From Actinospica acidithermotolerans (GTDB lineage: Bacteria > Actinomycetota > Actinomycetes > Streptomycetales > Catenulisporaceae), in assembly GCF_018139625.1 (NCBI RefSeq), contig NZ_JAGSOH010000076.1, positions 1 through 37,550 of the forward strand: a stretch of DNA of 37,550 nucleotides. Direction: 5' to 3'. The notes below the pieces were generated by a model. The model was not told the DNA's origin. It ran no database searches and saw only the letters and a list, made by a program, of their open reading frames with translations. Made by a program: the position numbers and the translations under genes. Shown piece after piece: positions 2,376 through 11,646 of this stretch; position 1 is the first letter of the stretch, and every line of letters begins with the position of its first letter.

Positions 2376-3613
2376 GTGCGGCCCGGAACGTCATCGAACG
2401 CTGCGACGAGATGGCCGCGATATCGGCGCTGCCCGAGACGTTCATCGAGCGCACTTACCTGACCGTCGAGCACAAGGCCGCGAACGCCACCGTCGCCGAG
2501 TGGCTTTCCGAGGCCGGTCTCGCGACCTGGCAGGACGCCGCGGGCAACGTGTGCGGACGGCTGGAAGGCGCGCGTCCTGGCCTGCCGGCGCTGCTGCTCG
2601 GTTCGCACCTCGACACAGTGCCGCGAGCCGGGCGGTACGACGGCGTGCTCGGCGTGATGATCGCCATCGAGGTAGCCGCGCGCATCCGGCGCAGCGGCAA
2701 CGCGCTTCCGTTCGCGGTCGAGGTCATAGGCTTCGGCGACGAGGAGGGCACCCGCTTCGGCGCCACGCTGCTGGGCAGCCGCGCGGTGGCTGGGACCTGG
2801 AACCACGCATGGTGGCACTGCACGGATGCGGACGGTGTGTCGCTGCACGAGGCGTTCGCCGCGTTCGGACTCGATCCGGAGGCGATCGGACGCGCGGCGC
2901 GGCGGCCCGCGGACGTGATCGGCTACCTGGAGGCGCACATCGAGCAGGGGCCGATCCTCGAGCAGCGCGGCCGGGCGCTCGGTCTCGTCACGACGATCGC
3001 GGGCGCGCGACGGATGCTGGTCACGGTCACCGGCCGGGCCTCGCACGCCGGGACGCCGTACGCCATGCGGCGCGACGCCCTCGCGGGCGCGAGCGAGGCG
3101 ATGGTCGCGGTCGAATCGCTGGCCCCCGGCCTCGGGCTCATCGCGACGATCGGCAGGGTCGGAGCGCTGCCCGGTGCGGTCAACGTCGTGCCCGGCGCGG
3201 CGACGTTCAGCCTCGACGTGCGCGCGACCTCCGACGATATCCGCGACGACGGCCTGGACGTCCTTCTCGCCGCGATCGGCGACACGTGCGAACGCCGAGG
3301 GCTGAGCGTCGACGTCGAGCACACGCACGCCGCGGAGACAGTGCACTGCGACGAGAGGCTGCGGTCCGCCCTGTCACGGGCGATCAGCGCAACGGGCGAC
3401 GCCGATCCGCTCGACCTGTTCTCCCCGGCGGGCCACGACGCGATGGCGCTCGCCGCGCTCACCCGCGTCGGCATGCTCTTCGTGCGCTGCGCCGGCGGCG
3501 TCAGCCACCACCCCGACGAGTCAGTGCTCGAGGAAGACGTGTCACACGCGATCGACGCGATGCACGCGGCGGTGCTGAACCTCGCGGAGGAGTACGCGGC
3601 GGCGCCGCAGTGA
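2372..3613 (+). CDS. allC: Allantoate amidohydrolase (peptidase M20 family)
   Basis: A 413-residue M20-family metallohydrolase that removes ammonia and CO2 from allantoate to give ureidoglycine. The binuclear metal site is readable: H79 (GSHLDTVPRAGRYDG), bridging D90, E124/E125 (FGDEEGTRFG), H189 (EAHIEQGP) and a C-terminal histidine in SHHPDE. The dimerisation insert lies between about 205 and 315, and SPAGHDAMALA is the usual M20 amidohydrolase signature. The ATG at 2372 overlaps the pucG stop. An open frame extends far upstream but lies inside pucG and has no family similarity. N-carbamoyl-amino-acid hydrolases and ureidoglycolate hydrolase share the fold, but operon position between pucG and uraD supports allantoate. 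The stop overlaps the GTG of the regulator. Confidence 0.9.
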   Translation: MSAARNVIERCDEMAAISALPETFIERTYLTVEHKAANATVAEWLSEAGLATWQDAAGNVCGRLEGARPGLPALLLGSHLDTVPRAGRYDGVLGVMIAIEVAARIRRSGNALPFAVEVIGFGDEEGTRFGATLLGSRAVAGTWNHAWWHCTDADGVSLHEAFAAFGLDPEAIGRAARRPADVIGYLEAHIEQGPILEQRGRALGLVTTIAGARRMLVTVTGRASHAGTPYAMRRDALAGASEAMVAVESLAPGLGLIATIGRVGALPGAVNVVPGAATFSLDVRATSDDIRDDGLDVLLAAIGDTCERRGLSVDVEHTHAAETVHCDERLRSALSRAISATGDADPLDLFSPAGHDAMALAALTRVGMLFVRCAGGVSHHPDESVLEEDVSHAIDAMHAAVLNLAEEYAAAPQ

Positions 3614-4638
3614 ACGACGCCGGGCTCGGGCAGCGGATCGACCGGCTCTACGCCTCGCTCTCGCCGCAGGAGCAGCGCGCCGCCGACGTCGTGCTGGATC
3701 GCCTCGACGACCTCGCCGTCTACAACGCGTCGGAGATCGCGCAGATCAGCGGCGTGTCGAAGGCGACCGTGTCACGGCTCGTGCGGCGGCTCGGTTACGA
3801 GGACTTCGCTCAGGTCCGCGCACAGGCGCGAACACTGCGCAGCCTCGGCACACCCCTTGGAACCTCGTCAGCATACGAAGCCTCCGCCGACGCGTCGACC
3901 GTCGCCGGAGGCTCGTCCACGCTCGCCGCGCATCTGGCCTCGTCAGCATACGAAGCCTGCGCCGACGCGTCGACCGTCGCCGGAGGCTCGTCCACGCTCG
4001 CCGCGCATCTGGCCTCGTCAGCATACGAAGCCTCCGCCGACGCGTCGACCGTCGCCGGAGGCTCGTCCACGCTCGCCGCGCATCTGGCCTCCGAGCTGCG
4101 GAACCTGGAGTCGATGCTGCTTCGCACCCTCGCGGACGGCCGGGCCGAGAAGGCCGCCGCGCTGCTCGCCTCGGCCGAGGCGGTCGCCGTCATCGGCCGC
4201 CGCAACAGCTACCCCGTTGCCCTGCACCTGCGGCAGCAACTCGCCCAGATCCGCGGCCGGGTCGCGCTGCTGCCGGTGCCCGGCCAAAGCCTCGGCGAGG
4301 ACCTGGCGGCCCTCGGACCGAGCGACGCCGCGGTGCTCGTCGGCTTCCGGCGCCGTCCCCGGGGATTCGCCCGCCTGGTCGAAGTATTGGCCGCACGCGG
4401 TGTGCCGGTCGTGTTGATCGGCGACGAGTCACTCGAACCGTGGCAGGATCGGGTGGCGCACTTCCTGCCCGTGCCGCTCGACGCGCCGTCGCCGTTCGAC
4501 AGCTACGCCGCCGCGATGAGCCTGGTCAACGTGCTGGCCACCGCGACGCTCGCGCGGCGCACGCGGCAGGGGCGCACCCGCGTCTCCGTGATCAGCGGAC
4601 TGTATGAGGAGCTCGACGAACTGGAGGAGCCCTGGTGA
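3610..4638 (+). CDS. MurR/RpiR family transcriptional regulator with internal triplication
   Basis: A 342-residue RpiR-type regulator: an N-terminal helix-turn-helix domain (about 1-77, with ASEIAQISGVSKATVSRLVRRLGY) and a C-terminal SIS domain (about 165-335) that in this family binds a small effector. GTG start overlapping the allC stop (GTGA). It sits inside the ureide operon and is therefore the likely local regulator, with a purine intermediate as a plausible ligand; that is inference. The odd part is three tandem 25-residue copies (SSAYEASADASTVAGGSS plus seven more residues) between the two domains. Removing two copies gives about 292 residues, the usual family length. The protein is thus normal at both ends but has a linker expanded by 50 residues. 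Confidence 0.9.
   Translation: MNDAGLGQRIDRLYASLSPQEQRAADVVLDRLDDLAVYNASEIAQISGVSKATVSRLVRRLGYEDFAQVRAQARTLRSLGTPLGTSSAYEASADASTVAGGSSTLAAHLASSAYEACADASTVAGGSSTLAAHLASSAYEASADASTVAGGSSTLAAHLASELRNLESMLLRTLADGRAEKAAALLASAEAVAVIGRRNSYPVALHLRQQLAQIRGRVALLPVPGQSLGEDLAALGPSDAAVLVGFRRRPRGFARLVEVLAARGVPVVLIGDESLEPWQDRVAHFLPVPLDAPSPFDSYAAAMSLVNVLATATLARRTRQGRTRVSVISGLYEELDELEEPW
3863..4087 (+). repeat. Three 75-bp in-frame tandem repeats within the RpiR regulator
   Basis: Copies at 3863-3937, 3938-4012 and 4013-4087. By eye they are identical except for one base in copy 2 (TCC to TGC, Ser to Cys, around 3959). The 75-bp period keeps the reading frame and adds 25 residues per copy. Near-identity, including third positions, implies recent duplication by slippage or unequal recombination. 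Confidence 0.95.
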
Positions 4639-5126
4639 TCCTCGACGCGCCCGAGTCCGACCTGCGCGAGTTGCTGCGCTCCTGCCTGGCCGTGCCGCGC
4701 TGGATCGACGAGGTGGCGTCGGCCGCGCCCTTCGCCTCCGCGGCCGAACTCCTGGACCGCGCGGCGAGCGCGGCCGATCCGCTCCAAGCCGCCGAGGTCG
4801 AGCTCGCATTGGCCGACCACCCGCGGATCGGCGAGCGCCCGACGGGATCCGGCAGGTCGGCCGCGTTCTCCCGATCCGAGCAGCAGTCCCCGGACGCCGG
4901 CGACGCCGAGCTTGCCGCGCGGATCGCGCAGGGCAACGCCGCGTACGAGGCCCGCTTCGGCCGCGTCTTCCTGATCCGCGCGGCCGGCCGCACCCGCGCC
5001 GAGATCCTGGCCGAGCAATCGCGCCGCCTGGCGCTCGACGACGAAGACGACCTGCGGATCGTCGCGGCCGAACTGCGGGAGATCGCGCTGCTCCGGCTGA
5101 CGCGGCTGATCGGGATGGGAGCGTAG
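4635..5126 (+). CDS. uraD: OHCU decarboxylase
   Basis: A 163-residue 2-oxo-4-hydroxy-4-carboxy-5-ureidoimidazoline decarboxylase, the stereospecific last step of urate oxidation that yields (S)-allantoin. The family hallmark A-D-H-P-R-I-G is at residues 60-66, with H62 the catalytic histidine. The Q-x-x-S/E pattern around SRSEQQSPDAGD and the helical segment ending FGRVFLIRAAGRT also match. The start is a GTG that overlaps the regulator's stop (GTGA), so translation is coupled. uraH follows four bases later. Length is normal for the stand-alone bacterial enzyme. High confidence. Confidence 0.93.
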   Translation: MILDAPESDLRELLRSCLAVPRWIDEVASAAPFASAAELLDRAASAADPLQAAEVELALADHPRIGERPTGSGRSAAFSRSEQQSPDAGDAELAARIAQGNAAYEARFGRVFLIRAAGRTRAEILAEQSRRLALDDEDDLRIVAAELREIALLRLTRLIGMGA

Positions 5127-5130
5127 CCAG

Positions 5131-5469
5131 GTGCGGAGCCACGTCACGACGCACGTGCTGGATGCGGCGAAGGGCGCACCGGCATCAGGCGTCCTCGTCA
5201 CCTTGGAGCAGCACGGCGGCGATGCATGGCACGTCGTCGGCACCGGGACCACCGACGCCGACGGCCGGATCAACGAGCTCGGCCCGGACCGCCTCCCCGA
5301 GGGCCGCTACCGCGTCGGCTTCGACACCGGGACGTACTTCGCGGCCCAGGGCACCGACACGTTCTATCCCGAGGTCACGATCGTCTTCGAGCTCGCCGAC
5401 GCCGCCGCGCACTACCACGTGCCCCTGCTGCTGAGCCCGTTCGCCTATTCGACCTACCGCGGCAGCTGA
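5131..5469 (+). CDS. uraH: 5-hydroxyisourate hydrolase (transthyretin-like)
   Basis: A 112-residue transthyretin-related protein that opens the ring of 5-hydroxyisourate to OHCU. Both signature ends are present: N-terminal THVLDAAKGAPASGVLV with the catalytic histidine, and the C-terminal YRGS tetrapeptide that separates hydrolases from the vertebrate hormone carrier. R in the INELGPDRLPEGRYR region is also typical. GTG start, four bases after uraD. It ends the forward operon; only 20 bases separate it from the stop of the convergent uricase, and I see no clear hairpin in that gap, so the two transcripts may overlap at their 3' ends. Confidence 0.94.
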   Translation: MRSHVTTHVLDAAKGAPASGVLVTLEQHGGDAWHVVGTGTTDADGRINELGPDRLPEGRYRVGFDTGTYFAAQGTDTFYPEVTIVFELADAAAHYHVPLLLSPFAYSTYRGS

Positions 5470-5489: not shown

Positions 5490-6398
5490 TTAGACCAAAC
5501 CGGTGAACGACTCCCACGCGGGACCCGCGTCCTCGGCGTCGTCATGCATGACGGTGGCCTGAATGAGGCCGTATGGGCGATCGGCGGCGTGGAAGATCTC
5601 GCCCCGGTTCTCGATGCCGAAGCGGGCCAGATCGTAGGCGAAGTGGTGCTTGTTCGGGGCCGAGAGCCGGATCTCTGCGACCTCCGGGCATGCTTCGAGG
5701 ACCGCACGGCCCATCGCGTAGAGCGTCTGCTGCAGGGCGAGCGAGTGCAGGTTCGCGAAGGTGGCGACCAAGGCCTGGCGGATACTCGCGTACGCCTCAT
5801 CCCAGTCGACCTCCAGCGTCGAGAACCGCCACCCGGCCACGAGCGACGTGGCCATCACGCGGTCGGCCGCCGGTTCGAGGACCGTGTACGGGTCCTGGAG
5901 GAAGCCGCGGAACTCGGAGCCGGTGGACTTCAGGATCGTCAGATCCTTGACGCCGCCGACGACCCAGGTGCGCTGCGCGGCTCCCGCGCCGGACACGGTG
6001 ACGGCGACGGTCCGCACCTCGGGGCCGCGGCGCACCCACGTGTGGTCGTGCTCGGCGCCGTCGGCCGTGGTCACGCGCTCCCACGCGTACTCCTCGATCT
6101 CGACGCGGGCCGTGTCGACCGGCTCGATGTCGTCCACGAAGTGCCTGGCCAGCGTGAGGGCGTACTCCTCGGTCGTGTCCCACGCGGCCTGCTTCGCGTA
6201 CGCGTAGACGGTCTGCTTCTGGCTGTCGGTCGGCAGGACGGCCGACTGGTCGCCCTCGATGTGCGCCGCGTCGAACCAGCCGCGGAGCGCGGTCGAGACG
6301 TTGAGGTCGCGGATCTCGTGGCGCGGCGTGTCGCGCTGGATCCGCACGACGCGGCTCTCCGCCTTGCCGTACCGGTTGGGGCCGAGCACGATCGCCAT
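5490..6398 (-). CDS. uox: Urate oxidase (uricase)
   Basis: A 302-residue cofactor-free urate oxidase converting urate, O2 and water to 5-hydroxyisourate and H2O2. Both T-fold repeats are present. Catalytic-pocket residues recognisable from known uricases are K12 (NRYGKAESRV), T57 (LPTDSQKQTVYA) and the histidine of the PNKHHF segment. VKDLTILKSTGSEFRGFLQD is the usual second-domain motif. The start ATG at 6398 shares its first base with the allantoinase stop (TGATG), so the two are co-translated. The H2O2 it makes could be handled by the catalase-peroxidase about 6 kb away, though nothing in sequence links them. Confidence 0.95.
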   Translation of the reverse strand: MAIVLGPNRYGKAESRVVRIQRDTPRHEIRDLNVSTALRGWFDAAHIEGDQSAVLPTDSQKQTVYAYAKQAAWDTTEEYALTLARHFVDDIEPVDTARVEIEEYAWERVTTADGAEHDHTWVRRGPEVRTVAVTVSGAGAAQRTWVVGGVKDLTILKSTGSEFRGFLQDPYTVLEPAADRVMATSLVAGWRFSTLEVDWDEAYASIRQALVATFANLHSLALQQTLYAMGRAVLEACPEVAEIRLSAPNKHHFAYDLARFGIENRGEIFHAADRPYGLIQATVMHDDAEDAGPAWESFTGLV

Positions 6399-7759
6399 CA
6401 GCGGTGGCTTCCTCTCTCCAGTAGCCGGCCGCGCGGTGTCGGGGGCTGATCCGGCGACGGTCCGAACACCTCGGCGCCGGCGAGCCACGTCCGCCGCACG
6501 GCGCCGATCAGCCGCGCGCCGTCGTACGCGCTGACCGGATTGCGGTGCAGCAACGCGCTCGCCGCGACCCGGACGGGTTCGTTCGGCGCGAAGGCCACGA
6601 GGTCGGCCCGCGCCCCCTGCTCGATCCGGCCGCGATCGGCGAGGCCGACCAGCCGGGACGTGCCCGCGCTCATCCATTCGAGCACTGACCCGAGCGGGAT
6701 GCCGCGCGACGCGGCGGCCGTCCACACCGCCGGCAGCGCGACCTGGAGCCCGGCGATCCCGCCCCACGCGCGTTCGAAGTCCCCGCCGCCGGCCAGCTTG
6801 AGCTCGGCGGTCGCGGGAGAGTGGTCCGAGGCGATGATGTCGATGACGCCGTCCTGCAAGCCCTGCCAGAGCAGGTCGCGGTTCTCGGCGGACCTGATCG
6901 GCGGGCAGCATTTGAATTGGGTGGCGCCCGGCGGGATCTCCGCCTCGGCGAAGGCCAGGTAGTGCGGGCAGGTCTCGACCGTGATCCGCACGCCCTCGCT
7001 CCGCGCCTCCGCGATCCTCGGCAGCGCCGCGGCCGACGAGAGATGCAGAATGTGGACACGCGCTCCGGTCGCATGAGCAGCCTTGATCACGTTCTCGATC
7101 GCCGCGACCTCGGCCGTGTCCGGTCGGCTGGCCGCGAAGCTCCCGTAGCCGCGCCCCACCACGGTCGCGGACGACGCCTCGGCGAGCACGTGCGGGTCCT
7201 CGGCGTGCACGATCAGCAGGCCGTCGAAGTCCTTGATCTCCGCCGCCGCGGCCGTCAACTGCTGCGCGCTCAGATGCTCGAACTCCGGCACCCCGGAGGG
7301 CGACAGGAACGCCTTGAAGCCGAAGACCCCGGCCAGATGGAGCGCCGCCAGGTGCCCGAGACTCTGCGGCACGGCCCCGCCCCAGAAACCCACGTCGACC
7401 GAGCACGCGCCGTCCGCCGCCTTCCGCTTGACCGCAAGGGCCTCCGGGGTGGTCGTCGGGGGAACGCTGTTCAGCGGCATGTCGATGATCGTGGTCACGC
7501 CGCCCGCCGCGGCCGCGGCGGTCGCGGTGGCGAAGCCCTCCCACTCGGTGCGGCCCGGCTCGTTGACGTGCACGTGCGTGTCCACGACGCCGGGGATGAG
7601 CACCTCGTCGCGCGGCAGTACGACCTCGCGGCGCGCATGGACCGGCGCATCGACGGGGAGCACGGACGTGATCCGTTCGCCGTCCACGACGACCGCGCCG
7701 GGCTTCGGGCCCTGCGGTGTGTGGACGGCTTCCGACCTGACGACGAGATCGTGAGACAT
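6398..7759 (-). CDS. allB: Allantoinase
   Basis: A 453-residue cyclic amidohydrolase that opens allantoin to allantoate. Binuclear-metal residues: H62 and H64 in DTHVHVNEPGR, the carbamylated lysine K149 in GFKAFLS, H185 (IVHAED), H239 (HILHLSS) and the aspartate of IIASDHSP. HVHVNEPGRTEWEG is the allantoinase form of this motif; dihydropyrimidinases and dihydroorotases differ there. ATG start. It is followed without a gap by uricase and preceded by 68 bases and the IspH-like gene on the same strand, so a four-gene transcript with the MFS transporter is possible. A separate promoter in the 68-base gap cannot be excluded. Confidence 0.93.
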   Translation of the reverse strand: MSHDLVVRSEAVHTPQGPKPGAVVVDGERITSVLPVDAPVHARREVVLPRDEVLIPGVVDTHVHVNEPGRTEWEGFATATAAAAAGGVTTIIDMPLNSVPPTTTPEALAVKRKAADGACSVDVGFWGGAVPQSLGHLAALHLAGVFGFKAFLSPSGVPEFEHLSAQQLTAAAAEIKDFDGLLIVHAEDPHVLAEASSATVVGRGYGSFAASRPDTAEVAAIENVIKAAHATGARVHILHLSSAAALPRIAEARSEGVRITVETCPHYLAFAEAEIPPGATQFKCCPPIRSAENRDLLWQGLQDGVIDIIASDHSPATAELKLAGGGDFERAWGGIAGLQVALPAVWTAAASRGIPLGSVLEWMSAGTSRLVGLADRGRIEQGARADLVAFAPNEPVRVAASALLHRNPVSAYDGARLIGAVRRTWLAGAEVFGPSPDQPPTPRGRLLERGSHR

Positions 7760-7827
7760 TGCACTTCACGGTACCCAACCGGTCGTTTCACGCGCGCGAC
7801 ACGCCGGTTACGTCCGCTGTACCGGCG

Positions 7828-8952
7828 TCAGGAGAGCAGCCCGGACCCCCACCAGCCGGTCGCGTCCTGGACCACCGTGCCCGGCCTCGTCCCCTGGCTC
7901 AGCGAGGACGGCCGCATCGGCTCGGTCCGCGTCGCGCGGCGCCGGGCGGAGAGCTGGCCGAGGCCGCCGAACAGGTCGATCGCCTCCGCCACGCGCTTGT
8001 CGGCGGTGACCGAGCCGACCGGGATCAGGCCGATCGAGCGGTGCGCGAGCTGCTCCGGCCGCAGGTCGACCGGATCGGTGACGCGCACGCAGGGCACGCC
8101 GAGCGCGTCCACGACCGCGGCGACCGTGGGGTCCGTCGGCTCGGCCGGTTCGCACAGGACGAGCACGCACTCGCTCGCGGCCGCCACCGACCGGACCGTC
8201 TCGTACCAGTCCGACCGGCCGTAGCAGTACTCGTCGGGGTGCTGGCCGCGCAGCCGGGGGAAGCGCTCCCGCAGCCCGCGCACGATCGGCATCGCCGACT
8301 CGATGCGCGTGCCGGGCACGATGACGAACGAGAGCGCGTTCGGGTTCACGTCGTCGAGCGCGATCGTCGCGGGCTCGCGCACGACCTCCGCCCGGCCCCC
8401 GGCGCCGCGCGCGTCCGCCGCCAGCTGCTCGGCGAGCGGGTTGTCCGGCTCGGCGACCAGCACGATCGTGTCGCCGCGGTGCGCGAAGTCGAGGACTGAC
8501 GCGTGCGCCGAGCGGCGGTGCGGGCACATGGCCGTCGCCGCGGTCGCGGTGGCGCAGGAAGGCTGTTCGGCGACCAGGATGCGGCGGGTGTGGATCACGG
8601 AGGTCCACTCGCACAGCGCGCGCAGCACGGCGTCGAGCGCCGCCGAGTCGTCGGCGGGCAGGGCGGCCGCCAGCCCGGTCGCGTGGCCGTCCCGGTCGAG
8701 GTAGCTGACCGCGGCGGTGATCGTGGTCCGGGTGTGCCGGCGGGCGTCGACGTCCGAGTCGAGCAGCACGTCCCGGCCCGGGAGCCCCGCCCCCGGGCGC
8801 AGCCGCTCGGCGAGCGTCGCGGCGAACGCGGGCGCCGCCGGGCAGCGCACCGAACCGCGCGTCGGATGCTCGAAGCGGGTGAGCACACTGATGCGCTCGC
8901 GGGCCACCAGCGGACCCCGGGCGAGGGTCTGCACGAGAAGGGTCCTGTTCAC
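7828..8952 (-). CDS. Divergent IspH (LytB)-like protein of unknown function
   Basis: A 374-residue protein whose C-terminal two thirds align by eye with IspH, the [4Fe-4S] HMBPP reductase of isoprenoid synthesis. Around residues 143-150, C-P-x4-A-H matches IspH CPLVTKVH. LSFVIVPGT, LRERFP and EYCYGRSDWYETVRS (about 207-255) match the IspH stretch around its third cluster cysteine. Candidate cluster cysteines are C37, C143 and C243. Residues used by true IspH on substrate seem lost: the HPEVEGT loop reads EPDNPLAEQ, the TTLS loop reads VPGTRIES, and the NSSNS loop reads EPAEPTDP. It is therefore probably not a housekeeping IspH. GTG start three bases after the MFS stop, same strand as allantoinase and uricase. 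Role unknown; an Fe-S redox or sensory role in ureide use is inference only. Confidence 0.7.
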   Translation of the reverse strand: MNRTLLVQTLARGPLVARERISVLTRFEHPTRGSVRCPAAPAFAATLAERLRPGAGLPGRDVLLDSDVDARRHTRTTITAAVSYLDRDGHATGLAAALPADDSAALDAVLRALCEWTSVIHTRRILVAEQPSCATATAATAMCPHRRSAHASVLDFAHRGDTIVLVAEPDNPLAEQLAADARGAGGRAEVVREPATIALDDVNPNALSFVIVPGTRIESAMPIVRGLRERFPRLRGQHPDEYCYGRSDWYETVRSVAAASECVLVLCEPAEPTDPTVAAVVDALGVPCVRVTDPVDLRPEQLAHRSIGLIPVGSVTADKRVAEAIDLFGGLGQLSARRRATRTEPMRPSSLSQGTRPGTVVQDATGWWGSGLLS

Positions 8953-8955
8953 CGT

Positions 8956-10479
8956 TCAATCCTGACGGACGGGGACTCCCTGCTGGTAGGACCAAGAGAG
9001 TGACAGTGCACCGGCGGGCGAACCGGCACCGCGGCGCACGGTCCGCGACAGCCGCACGATCTGGACCGAGCCGAGCGCGAGCAGCAGGTAGGGGAAGCAG
9101 AACGCGACCTTGAACCCGTCCAGCGCGGCCGCCGCGGACGCGGCGTGCTCGGCGCCGGTCGCGTCCACCAGGATTCCGGTGGCCACGAGCGTGATCGCCG
9201 AGGCGATGAACGTCCCGATGTTCACCATGCCGGACGCCGTGCCCAGCTGCTCCGGCGGGCTGGCGCTGCGCGCGACGTCGAACCCGATCATCGACCCGGC
9301 GCCGTTGCCCGCGTACGCGAATACGAGCACGATGAGCAGCCACAGCGGCGCGCGCCCCGGCCACAGCAGGACGGCCGCGAGCGCGAGCGCGGTGCTCGCC
9401 GCGACGCCGAGGGCGAGCGGCACGCGCAGCTCGGGCCGCCGCGTCAGCAGGATGCCGAAAGCGAAGCAGCAGGCCATGTTCGCGCAGATCAGCAATGTGA
9501 GAAGCGCGCTCGCCGCCCCGGAGCCGACGCCCTCGCCCTGCACCAGGAAGGGGTAGCCCCACAGCAGGCCGAACACCGCCGCCGGGAAGCCGGTGGTGAA
9601 GTGGATCCACAGGCCCAGCCGCGTCTGCGGGCGCGACCACGCATTGCGCATCTGGTCCCGCAGCCGCGCGGCGTGCCGGGTCACGTGGGCGGCCGAGCCG
9701 TGCGGGGTGTCGCGGACGATCGCGGCCGGCAGCACCAGCACGCACGCGCCGATCGCCGCGACGGCGAGGAACGTGCCGCTCCACCCGAGCTCGCGCAGGG
9801 CCCAGGCGAGCGGCCACGCGCTGGCGATGCCGCCGGCCGCGCCCGCGAGCGAGGTCAGCTGCGTGACCAGGGCGACGCGGCGGCTCGGGAACCACGCGAC
9901 GACGATCCGCAGCACGCTGATGAACACCATCGCGTCGCCGCAGCCGAGCAGCCCGCGCGCGAGGAGCGCGAGCCCGAACGAGTCGACGGCGGCGAACGCG
10001 GCCTGCGCGACGCAGATGACGCTCAGTCCGGTCATCAGCAGCTTGCGCGGGCCGAAGCGGTCGACGAGCAGGCCGACGGGTATCTGCATCGCCGCGTAGA
10101 CGAGCAGTTGCAGCATGGAGAAGGTCGAGAGCGACGCGGCGTTGATACCGAAGCGCTGCTCGGCATCCGGCCCGGCGACGCCGAGGCTGCTGCGGTTGAA
10201 GACGGCGACGAAGTAGACGGCGACGGCGGCGGACCACATGATCCACGCGCGCGTCGGGACGCGGGCCCCGGCCGGGGGTGCGTCGGCGGTGGCGGCGGCG
10301 CTCGCCGCGAGGTCCGCGGCCGGATCGGCGAGATCCGCGGCCATCGCGGCGGCCCGGATCGCGTGCTCGGCGGCGGCACGATCGTCGGCGACGCGTCCGG
10401 CGGCCGCGGAGGCGGTCGCGGCGGACGGGCCCAGTGGTGGAACGGGGACAGGGGCAGCGGCTCTGTCTATGGCATCCAT
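8956..10479 (-). CDS. MFS transporter, candidate purine/ureide permease
   Basis: A 507-residue major facilitator superfamily protein. About 70 N-terminal residues are Ala-rich and poorly ordered, then come about twelve membrane segments. The loop 2-3 signature is DRFGPRKLL. A cytoplasmic loop around DTPHGSAAHVTRHAARLRDQM separates the two halves. The start is uncertain: the ATG at 10479 has no strong ribosome site, and a start nearer the first membrane helix (VPTRAWIMW) would also give a complete transporter. The next gene starts three bases after its stop, so it is co-transcribed with the IspH-like gene and perhaps allantoinase and uricase. Uptake of urate, allantoin or a related compound is inferred from that context. 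The divergent LacI regulator is a likely controller. Confidence 0.8.
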   Translation of the reverse strand: MDAIDRAAAPVPVPPLGPSAATASAAAGRVADDRAAAEHAIRAAAMAADLADPAADLAASAAATADAPPAGARVPTRAWIMWSAAVAVYFVAVFNRSSLGVAGPDAEQRFGINAASLSTFSMLQLLVYAAMQIPVGLLVDRFGPRKLLMTGLSVICVAQAAFAAVDSFGLALLARGLLGCGDAMVFISVLRIVVAWFPSRRVALVTQLTSLAGAAGGIASAWPLAWALRELGWSGTFLAVAAIGACVLVLPAAIVRDTPHGSAAHVTRHAARLRDQMRNAWSRPQTRLGLWIHFTTGFPAAVFGLLWGYPFLVQGEGVGSGAASALLTLLICANMACCFAFGILLTRRPELRVPLALGVAASTALALAAVLLWPGRAPLWLLIVLVFAYAGNGAGSMIGFDVARSASPPEQLGTASGMVNIGTFIASAITLVATGILVDATGAEHAASAAAALDGFKVAFCFPYLLLALGSVQIVRLSRTVRRGAGSPAGALSLSWSYQQGVPVRQD

Positions 10480-10552
10480 GGCGCCCGCATCTTCTCATGC
10501 ATCGGACGTCATACGTTTTCAGGTTCGCGGAGTGGGACGGGATGCAGCGCTT

Positions 10553-10564
10553 TGCAACGATGCA
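10553..10564. promoter_or_regulatory. Candidate LacI-family operator
   Basis: TGCAACGATGCA is a 12-base palindrome apart from the A/A positions flanking the central CG, the layout typical of LacI-family operators. It lies in the 123-bp divergent spacer, 39 bases before the LacI gene and 74 bases before the MFS start, well placed for control of both. Confidence 0.45.
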
Positions 10565-10602
10565 CCCTAAGCTGGTGGCCACGACGAGAGGAAGGGGTGC
10601 CG

Positions 10603-11646
10603 ATGGCGGCGCCGACGCTCAAGGACGTCGCCCTGCGCGCGGGCGTATCCGTACGAACCGTGTCAAACGTCGTCAACGACTACGTGTACGTCGCGGACGA
10701 CACCCGCGCCCGGGTCCAGGCGGCGATCGACGAGCTCGGGTACCGCCCGAACCTGCTCGCCCGCAACCTCAAGCTCGGCCGCACGAAGATGCTCGCGCTC
10801 GTCGTGCCGGAGCTCGACGTGCCCTACTTCGCCGAGCTCGCCCGGCTGATCATCCATGAGGCGCGCACCGCGGGCTACACCGTGCTGATCGACCAGACCG
10901 ACGGCGACGAGCGGCGCGAACGCGAACTCGTCACCGAGGACGCGCGCGGGGTGAACTTCGACGGCGTGATCGCCAGCCCGCTGTCGCTGACCGAGGAGGC
11001 GCTCGAGGGCCGGCGCGCCTCCGCGCCGGTGGTGCTGCTCGGCGAGCGGCTGTTCGCGGCCGGCGTCGACCACGTGGCGATCGACAACGTCCGGGCCGCC
11101 CGCGAGGCGACCGAGTACCTCTTCTCGCTGGGACGCCGCCGGATCGCCGCCATCGGCGTGCAGCACGAGAGCACCGGCACGGCGAAACTGCGCACGATCG
11201 GCTTCCGCGGGGCCTTCGCCGCGGCCGGCGCCGTCGTGGACGAGGACCTGCTCGTCGAGGTCGGCCACTACCACCGCGAGGACGGCGCCGCCGCGATGGC
11301 CCGGCTGCTCGATCTGCCCGAGCCGCCCGACGCCGTGTTCTGCTTCTCCGACCTGCTGGCGCTCGGCGCGCAGCGGGTGGCGCTCGCACGCGGCCTGTCC
11401 GTGCCCGAGGACCTCGCCGTCATCGGCTTCGACGACATCGAGGACGGCCGCTACGCCACCCCGACGCTCACGACGATCTCTCCCGACAAGGCGGTGATCG
11501 CCCGATCCGCGGTGCGCCAGCTGATCGCCCGCATCGACGCCGCGGACGAGGCCGCCGAGCCGGCGCAGAGCGTCCAGATCGAGGCCCCCTACCGGCTCGT
11601 GGTGCGGGAGAGCACTCAGGGCCGTATCTCCACTGGCGGATCCTGA
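10603..11646 (+). CDS. LacI family transcriptional regulator
   Basis: A 347-residue LacI/GalR regulator. The N-terminal headpiece (PTLKDVALRAGVSVRTVSNV, followed by the hinge helix RPNLLARNLKLGRT) is canonical; the C-terminal periplasmic-binding-like domain includes IGFDDIEDGRYATP near the end. The start is the ATG at 10603, preceded by GAGGAAGGGG; the open frame continues upstream but lies in the divergent spacer and MFS gene. It faces away from the MFS/IspH-like/allantoinase/uricase run and is probably its regulator, with autoregulation through the palindrome at 10553-10564. The effector cannot be read from sequence. LacI regulators usually sense sugars, so one guarding ureide genes would be unusual. 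Confidence 0.9.
   Translation: MAAPTLKDVALRAGVSVRTVSNVVNDYVYVADDTRARVQAAIDELGYRPNLLARNLKLGRTKMLALVVPELDVPYFAELARLIIHEARTAGYTVLIDQTDGDERRERELVTEDARGVNFDGVIASPLSLTEEALEGRRASAPVVLLGERLFAAGVDHVAIDNVRAAREATEYLFSLGRRRIAAIGVQHESTGTAKLRTIGFRGAFAAAGAVVDEDLLVEVGHYHREDGAAAMARLLDLPEPPDAVFCFSDLLALGAQRVALARGLSVPEDLAVIGFDDIEDGRYATPTLTTISPDKAVIARSAVRQLIARIDAADEAAEPAQSVQIEAPYRLVVRESTQGRISTGGS

Follow-up and report, generated by a model that had tools for sequence, protein, structure and literature searches.

A gene on the minus strand of the 37,550-nucleotide stretch of Actinospica acidithermotolerans DNA analysed here (the window) encodes a protein that resembles IspH (LytB) and has lost the active-site residues tested. 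IspH, whose Fe-S cluster is unusual in being open, is a drug target. The window protein belongs to one divergent actinomycete family, here called pseudo-IspH, which comprises 15 loci including the window. Our leading reading is that this family is paired with NsdA-type regulators and probably acts as an Fe-S sensor, and that the window gene is an orphan of it with an internal deletion; we hold this tentatively, a little short of an even chance. The features referred to below, in positions of the window, are as follows.

7828..8952, minus: pseudo-IspH gene (GTG start, 374 aa; PF02401 29.9 bits; divergent-family member; GC3 0.97)
8587..8952, minus: N-terminal domain, residues 1-122 (from hhalign; distant kin of the HpnG/PNP-like phosphorylase domain)
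8554-8556 and 8524-8526, minus: first two cysteine codons of the gene (C133 and C143)
8524..8556, minus: C133..C143 junction, the site at which most of IspH domain 1 has been lost (from alignments; residues 134-139 have pLDDT <50)
8224..8226, minus: third cysteine codon (C243; Cys in 14/14 aligned family members and 29/29 canonical rows)
8956..10479, minus: MFS transporter (PF07690 125 bits; 3 bases upstream of the pseudo-IspH gene)
6398..7759, minus: allantoinase AllB (TIGR03178 534.9 bits, cut-off 357.85; 68 bases downstream of the pseudo-IspH gene)
5490..6398, minus: uricase, 302 aa (by sequence recognition; 79% identical to an ORF beside allantoinase in genome G009, locus L123)
5131..5469, plus: probable HIU hydrolase (transthyretin-like; open frame, recognised by eye)
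4635..5126, plus: OHCU decarboxylase UraD (PF09349 129.3 bits)
3610..4638, plus: RpiR-type regulator (by recognition)

The IspH-like gene and its family

The original prediction, made from the sequence alone, described the C-terminal two thirds of this protein as IspH-like, and profile, sequence and fold comparisons all agree with it. The Pfam profile PF02401 (LYTB) matches residues 138-325 with an E-value of 4.5e-7 (29.9 bits, cut-off 24.5) in an alignment that spans positions 83-263 of the 267 in the profile, and PDB chains of E. coli-type IspH are matched by phmmer over residues 134-319 (E 1.4e-12 to 3.6e-12). The NCBIfam cut-offs for IspH are not reached (NF002188, 40.4 against 420; TIGR00216, 21.5 against 187.85). 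A structural model of the protein, built with the family alignment (pLDDT 83.2, pTM 0.79, residues 134-139 below 50), has IspH structures as its best matches (Z 13.1-14.2 over 204-223 residues), while the next match, an unrelated one, reaches Z 7.0. In these searches, for which the N-terminal domain was modelled only within the whole protein, high Z values were obtained for IspH only. L041, the one full-length family member modelled (pLDDT 85.7, pTM 0.82), keeps the whole IspH fold in its predicted structure (Z 24.8, rmsd 3.1, 294 residues aligned). The lower Z of the window model fits an in-frame deletion that has removed most of its IspH domain 1, a domain present in the other 13 aligned members. 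Likeness to IspH/LytB (PF02401, TIGR00216) covers the fold of the C-terminal two thirds, the order of strands and helices and three cysteines, which the prediction had also picked out and which the alignments place at C133, C143 and C243.

The host genome (7.9 Mb in 422 contigs, the window being contig C396) carries two canonical ispH genes besides the window gene, on contigs C95 (321.5 bits) and C210 (298.2 bits), so that the window gene is not the housekeeping copy. The view of the gene as a degenerate, non-housekeeping relative of IspH is thereby upheld. An assembly frameshift was considered and rejected, as the frame is open and homologous on either side of the junction, and homology and GC3 speak against a chance ORF on the wrong strand, although long spurious ORFs do occur in the window. 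The in-frame deletion, seen in assembled sequence and not in reads, could still be an assembly error. Scans for promoters and terminators over positions 7500-10800 found nothing, where shuffled sequences lead one to expect 0.1 and 0.7 hits.

Three surveys, covering 14 genomes of the taxonomic family, 394 of the class and 345 of the order to which the best distant match belongs (profile of four members), returned 13 loci in 12 genomes that have key losses in common with the window protein. The ten best new loci of the order survey scored E 5e-104 or better and the next, of canonical type, 2e-88. A pattern scan of an 84,980-species collection with five rows (C-terminal part) gave nine stretches at six loci; one of these (L096) was new and the others were already in the set (L093=G006:C662, L094=G582:C459, L095=G638:C24, L097=G640:C12 and L098=G007:C16). 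Because the scan pattern requires CYAASDR, members like the window protein (CYGRSDW) or those of the CDAASDR group are out of its reach. A pattern scan of genome contigs with the window protein alone returned 283 stretches and no relative among them. The 14 non-window loci are a lower bound, since lower-scoring matches of the order survey were not read singly for lost motifs. Hosts include Catenulispora pinistramenti, C. rubra, Actinomadura rubrisoli, A. rudentiformis and two MAGs.

The family alignment has 14 rows, namely the window protein and 13 members; L096 lies outside it and by eye shows similar marks (PGM, CYAASDR). The genes of L078 and L080 were placed from match coordinates, and the L080 row starts 42 bases after its likely start. 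In the IspH tree a branch with support of 100/100 separates the family rows from the rest; as this tree is unrooted and the window branch is long, descent from within canonical IspH is not derivable from it. Pairwise dN/dS values for four family pairs (0.31, 0.31, 0.33 and 0.53) suggest purifying selection in the members of those pairs. The window protein carries the marks of the family, i.e. the N-terminal domain, Gly at position 168, the loss of E126 and the three cysteines. The domain of about 120 residues at its N-terminus, the in-frame loss of most of domain 1 between C133 and C143 and the fact that the whole family has many of the residue losses in common go beyond what had been predicted.

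Active-site residues and the N-terminal domain

Residues were tabulated for 14 family rows and 29 canonical rows (L035 was dropped because no motif was found in it; L008, L011 and L036 are absent). The E. coli numbering, the residue roles and the list of diphosphate-pocket residues (H41, H74, S225, N227, T168, Q166 and S269) are those given in PMC8837944. All 29 canonical rows keep C12, H41, N42, H74, C96, H124, E126, T167, T168, C197, S225, N227 and S269, and S226 is Ala in 6 of them. Set against IspH/LytB, the 14 aligned family members have without exception lost E126, H41, T168 (replaced by Gly in every row) and N227 (Asp in 13). S225 is gone from 13 of the 14, being kept in L084, and T167 from 10. 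Other positions are partly kept: H74 in 12 rows, S269 in 9, H124 in 8, and T167 and Q166 in 4 each. The changes to Asp introduce negative charge at the site of diphosphate binding in IspH, which would exclude diphosphates from the pocket.

The window protein goes further than the rest of the family. At the catalytic positions it has Leu for E126 and Asn for H124; in the pocket, H41 and H74 are deleted, S225 is replaced by E, N227 by T, T168 by G, Q166 by V and S269 by V, and T167 is also gone. The prediction had noted by eye that the substrate-binding loops were replaced, and this reading stands up to the profile and structure checks against IspH, in which the similarity is real and the substrate residues tested are gone: the HPEVEGT-type loop has become DNPLAEQL, TTLS has become PGTR, and NSSNS has become PAEPTDP.

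The cysteines are kept. C96 and C197 are present in all 14 family rows of the site table and C12 in 13; in the family alignment the three cysteines are invariant in 14/14. The gap at the C12 column in the window row results from the deletion, and the first cysteine was thus assigned from other alignments. In IspH one cysteine from each domain holds the cluster, according to PMC8837944. Given one cysteine per domain and the loss of most of domain 1, a proper cluster site may be beyond what the window copy can still form. In the model C133 adjoins the low-confidence stretch, and the cluster site of the window copy may be gone.

The aligned family members have about 120 extra residues at the N-terminus, which IspH/LytB lacks. 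By hhalign this region matches two kinds of sequence: the N-termini of canonical N-extended IspH proteins, with a probability of 98.6 across 95 columns, and the phosphorylase portion of proteins in which IspH is fused to a phosphorylase, with 95.2 across 48 columns; 20 column shuffles all gave 0.6 or less. From these alignments, the family N-terminal domain is probably a worn-down phosphorylase domain. The canonical N-extended IspH proteins of actinomycetes (found in terpenoid clusters, e.g. L013/L044) share a related N-terminal domain; apart from the host genome of the window, it is among them that the class sample has its best match to the window protein. Unlike the family, they keep every tabulated active-site residue, and L044 adjoins dxs, gcpE and polyprenyl synthase genes (by eye). 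The fusions tested by profile, L021 and L031, combine LYTB with PNP_UDP_1 (L021 is HpnG-like); they differ from the family in their longer phosphorylase domain and their canonical IspH active site. The IspH-HpnG/PNP fusion looks common in actinomycetes (L021 and L031, and by eye L020, L024, L027, L030, L033 and L034); in PMC4746011, a UDP/PNP phosphorylase fusion stands among those found only in single species.

NsdA-family regulators and the role of the family

The recurring neighbours of pseudo-IspH genes encode NsdA-family TPR regulators (NF053720, 230-387 bits), proteins unrelated to IspH that include NsdA/SCO5582 and NsdB/SCO7252. An NsdA gene lies within 1 kb at 11 of the 13 loci from the family and order surveys, or at 11 of 14 when L096 is counted. 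The exceptions (L083, L084 and L096) are the locus of G582, where an NsdA match is absent genome-wide, the second copy of G640, and L096 itself; at L081 the two genes are separated by a short called ORF. Each of the other 11 genomes has 6 to 21 NsdA matches, which puts the chance of such a neighbour at 0.3-0.9% per locus; the counts draw on at most 67 scored candidates per genome and are possibly low. The probability of at least 11 of 13 would be about 2e-24 if the loci were independent; related strains make them non-independent, and the kin groups G367/G639/G635 and G679/G676 reduce the set to about eight separate positives. The NsdA gene is in tandem at five loci and convergent at three, and three loci have an NsdA gene on each side. 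Such variation in orientation speaks for a conserved partnership rather than a simple operon.

The regulators also group together. In a tree of 43 NsdA proteins (15 linked, 20 unlinked and mostly higher-scoring, and 8 of the 12 rows from the host of the window), all 15 linked rows fall in one 18-row subclade (100/98) with three unlinked ones. One linked row, L079b, lies about 3 kb from its pseudo-IspH gene, the nearer one being L079a. None of the 8 rows tested from the window's own genome belongs to this partner subclade (the 4 lower-scoring of the 12 are outside the tree), and none of that genome's 12 NsdA genes is on the window contig C396. A separate locus of the same genome, L124 (G000:C307:32492-41181), has two NsdA-family genes about 6 kb apart, which recalls the NsdA/pseudo-IspH/NsdA triplets; no IspH-like match was found between them. 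A table in PMC9739823 marks NsdA and NsdB of Streptomyces as negative regulators, and a title in its reference list has nsdA disruption activating silent antibiotic synthesis.

Beyond NsdA, the surroundings differ. L077 has mevalonate genes and a polyprenyl synthase gene near its pseudo-IspH gene; L078 and L080 have dxs, gcpE, a polyprenyl synthase gene and a second ispH of canonical type (by profile in L080, by BLAST clustering in L078). Type I PKS genes are found at L043 and KS/SDR multidomain proteins at L075 and L076 (by profile), and the neighbours at L041 are an acyltransferase (profile) and a ketosynthase (by eye).

Several side observations on these loci deserve mention. At L077:1051-9296, mevalonate-pathway genes, an aminotransferase gene and the polyprenyl synthase gene stand directly before the pseudo-IspH gene, a setting in which a working IspH would be of little use. 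L083 (the same locus as L094) and L096 share carbonic-anhydrase-like and methionine-synthase-like genes, both recognised by eye, which may represent a second conserved setting of the family. At L042:11717-14456, a family 2 encapsulin shell gene (SrpI-like, with a cNMP domain) is followed by a class V aminotransferase-fold gene, perhaps a cysteine desulfurase cargo, and the pair adjoins the pseudo-IspH/NsdA pair.

In the sensor reading, members of the family would bind a site-differentiated Fe-S cluster at whose open iron either a redox signal or some small ligand different from HMBPP would now be received, and pseudo-IspH would pass this signal to the nearby NsdA-type regulator. Several points weigh on the other side. 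The adjacency might reflect no more than the control of an enzyme gene by NsdA, many members keep part of the old pocket, and the isoprenoid genes near three loci (L077, L078 and L080) would suit an enzyme too; moreover, 3 of the 14 loci have no NsdA gene nearby and L081 has an ORF in between. In a more specific form, the IspH-derived Fe-S sensors would partner a subclade of NsdA-type secondary-metabolism repressors and report redox state or isoprenoid supply, with the window copy as a shortened, partner-free offshoot that has come under an operon of the purine region; we regard this form as rather unlikely.

The strongest rival, which we consider possible while doubting it, is that the family consists of Fe-S reductases recruited to the tailoring of terpenoids or polyketides, with the NsdA genes as ordinary cluster regulators and the window copy as a stray or relic. 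The terpenoid neighbours at L077, L078 and L080 and the PKS-type ones at L041, L043, L075 and L076 are what such a role would lead one to expect, and the retention of H74, S269 and H124 in 12, 9 and 8 of the 14 rows also counts in its favour. Yet E126, H41, T168 and N227 are gone from every row, and no obvious new catalytic set has taken their place beyond Gly168, an SD(R) motif and the Asp at 227 (13/14). In addition, the contexts change from locus to locus, whereas NsdA stays close in 11 of 14 in variable orientation. Among the matches listed in the open-access literature, a set that leaves subscription papers mostly outside, we found neither an active-site-dead IspH family nor a link between IspH and NsdA.

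The window copy and the urate region

The window copy itself could be a decaying relic, without most of domain 1 or a partner and kept by mere chance between two working genes. This is compatible with either reading of the family, and we judge it unlikely, though by no means negligible. No branch of the tree is longer than that of the copy (3.27 of drawn length, where most other members have about 1), a length that is probably inflated by missing columns; it has lost most of domain 1 together with H74 and S269, and there is no partner-subclade NsdA among the 8 genes tested from its own genome. Two genomes of the same genus, G002 and G003, have matches only at canonical-type scores. Against decay stand the frame that stays open across the deletion, the 3-base spacing from the MFS gene, a GC3 of 0.97 that is as high as in the neighbouring genes (0.90-0.99), and a confident model (pLDDT 83, pTM 0.79), even if the family alignment helps the latter. 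The copy may be repurposed or on its way out.

Its surroundings were what gave rise to the proposal that it is a new accessory factor in the use of purines or ureides. The layout behind the proposal is as described: the gap to the MFS gene measures 3 bases, and the gene shares a strand with allantoinase, supported by the TIGR03178 match, and with uricase, recognised by eye and by its 79% identity to the G009 ORF. The 3-base gap makes it probable that the window copy is expressed with the MFS gene. The plus strand also holds an amidase-like gene cut by the contig end and AllC (both by recognition), and an aminotransferase gene. Within the RpiR-type gene, an insert at window positions 3863-4091 (+) contains about three copies (98% alike) of a 75-base repeat; by eye it lies between the two domains of the regulator and is not seen in the visible part of the G009 orthologue.

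The functional part of the proposal did not hold. The urate-region proteins (amidase, aminotransferase, AllC, RpiR, UraD, uricase and AllB) have no tblastn match at any of the 14 non-window loci, within flanks of 0.6 to ~10 kb per side; the shortest are those of L096 (6.6 kb in all) and one side each of L083 (0.6 kb) and L078 (1.2 kb). The queries also included MFS, LacI, KatG, Fur and AKR, the HIU hydrolase was not among them, and the comparison concerns the neighbourhood and not whole genomes. Apart from IspH-like matches, the comparison returned an aldo-keto reductase in L080 and nothing else. There is, then, no conserved link between the family and uricase or allantoinase genes in the flanks covered.

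Moreover, both neighbours of the window gene occur elsewhere without pseudo-IspH. Orthologues of the MFS gene lie among other genes in G003 (68%) and G002 (73%), neither of which has an allantoinase over the family cut-off; in G003 some 4 kb separate it from KatG-Fur, and a stretch of 19.5 kb there has neither an IspH-like nor a urate match. In turn, G009 has an AllB-uricase-UraD-RpiR block that is 69-79% identical to that of the window, and the 2.3 kb upstream of its AllB contain a Rieske oxygenase gene and no IspH-like match.

A purine role for the window gene is unsupported. That this species nonetheless recruited the gene to the use of purines or ureides, as an accessory factor or redox sensor specific to the lineage, is improbable: its tight coupling to the MFS gene, its place just before allantoinase and uricase on one strand and its intact codon bias fit such a recruitment, and the absence of urate genes from 0.6 to ~10 kb around all 14 other loci, along with relatives that have the urate block or the MFS gene and no pseudo-IspH, tells against it. 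That the gene is a housekeeping or otherwise active HMBPP reductase can be set aside almost entirely, as its LYTB domain above the Pfam cut-off is outweighed by the two canonical copies, scores far under the NCBIfam IspH cut-offs and the absence of the active-site residues and most of domain 1.

Returning to the reading of an orphaned member of the NsdA-paired family, the window copy would have come to lie behind the MFS gene in the urate region by rearrangement, and what it does now, if it does anything, may have nothing to do with purines. The analysis takes away support for the proposed new purine factor. It also bears on annotation: since the window copy passes the Pfam LYTB cut-off, such genes may be called HMBPP reductase and so mislead pathway reconstruction. 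For the family, the pairing with NsdA offers a cheap and concrete test of the signal for these abundant actinomycete regulators, and could help to wake silent antibiotic clusters.
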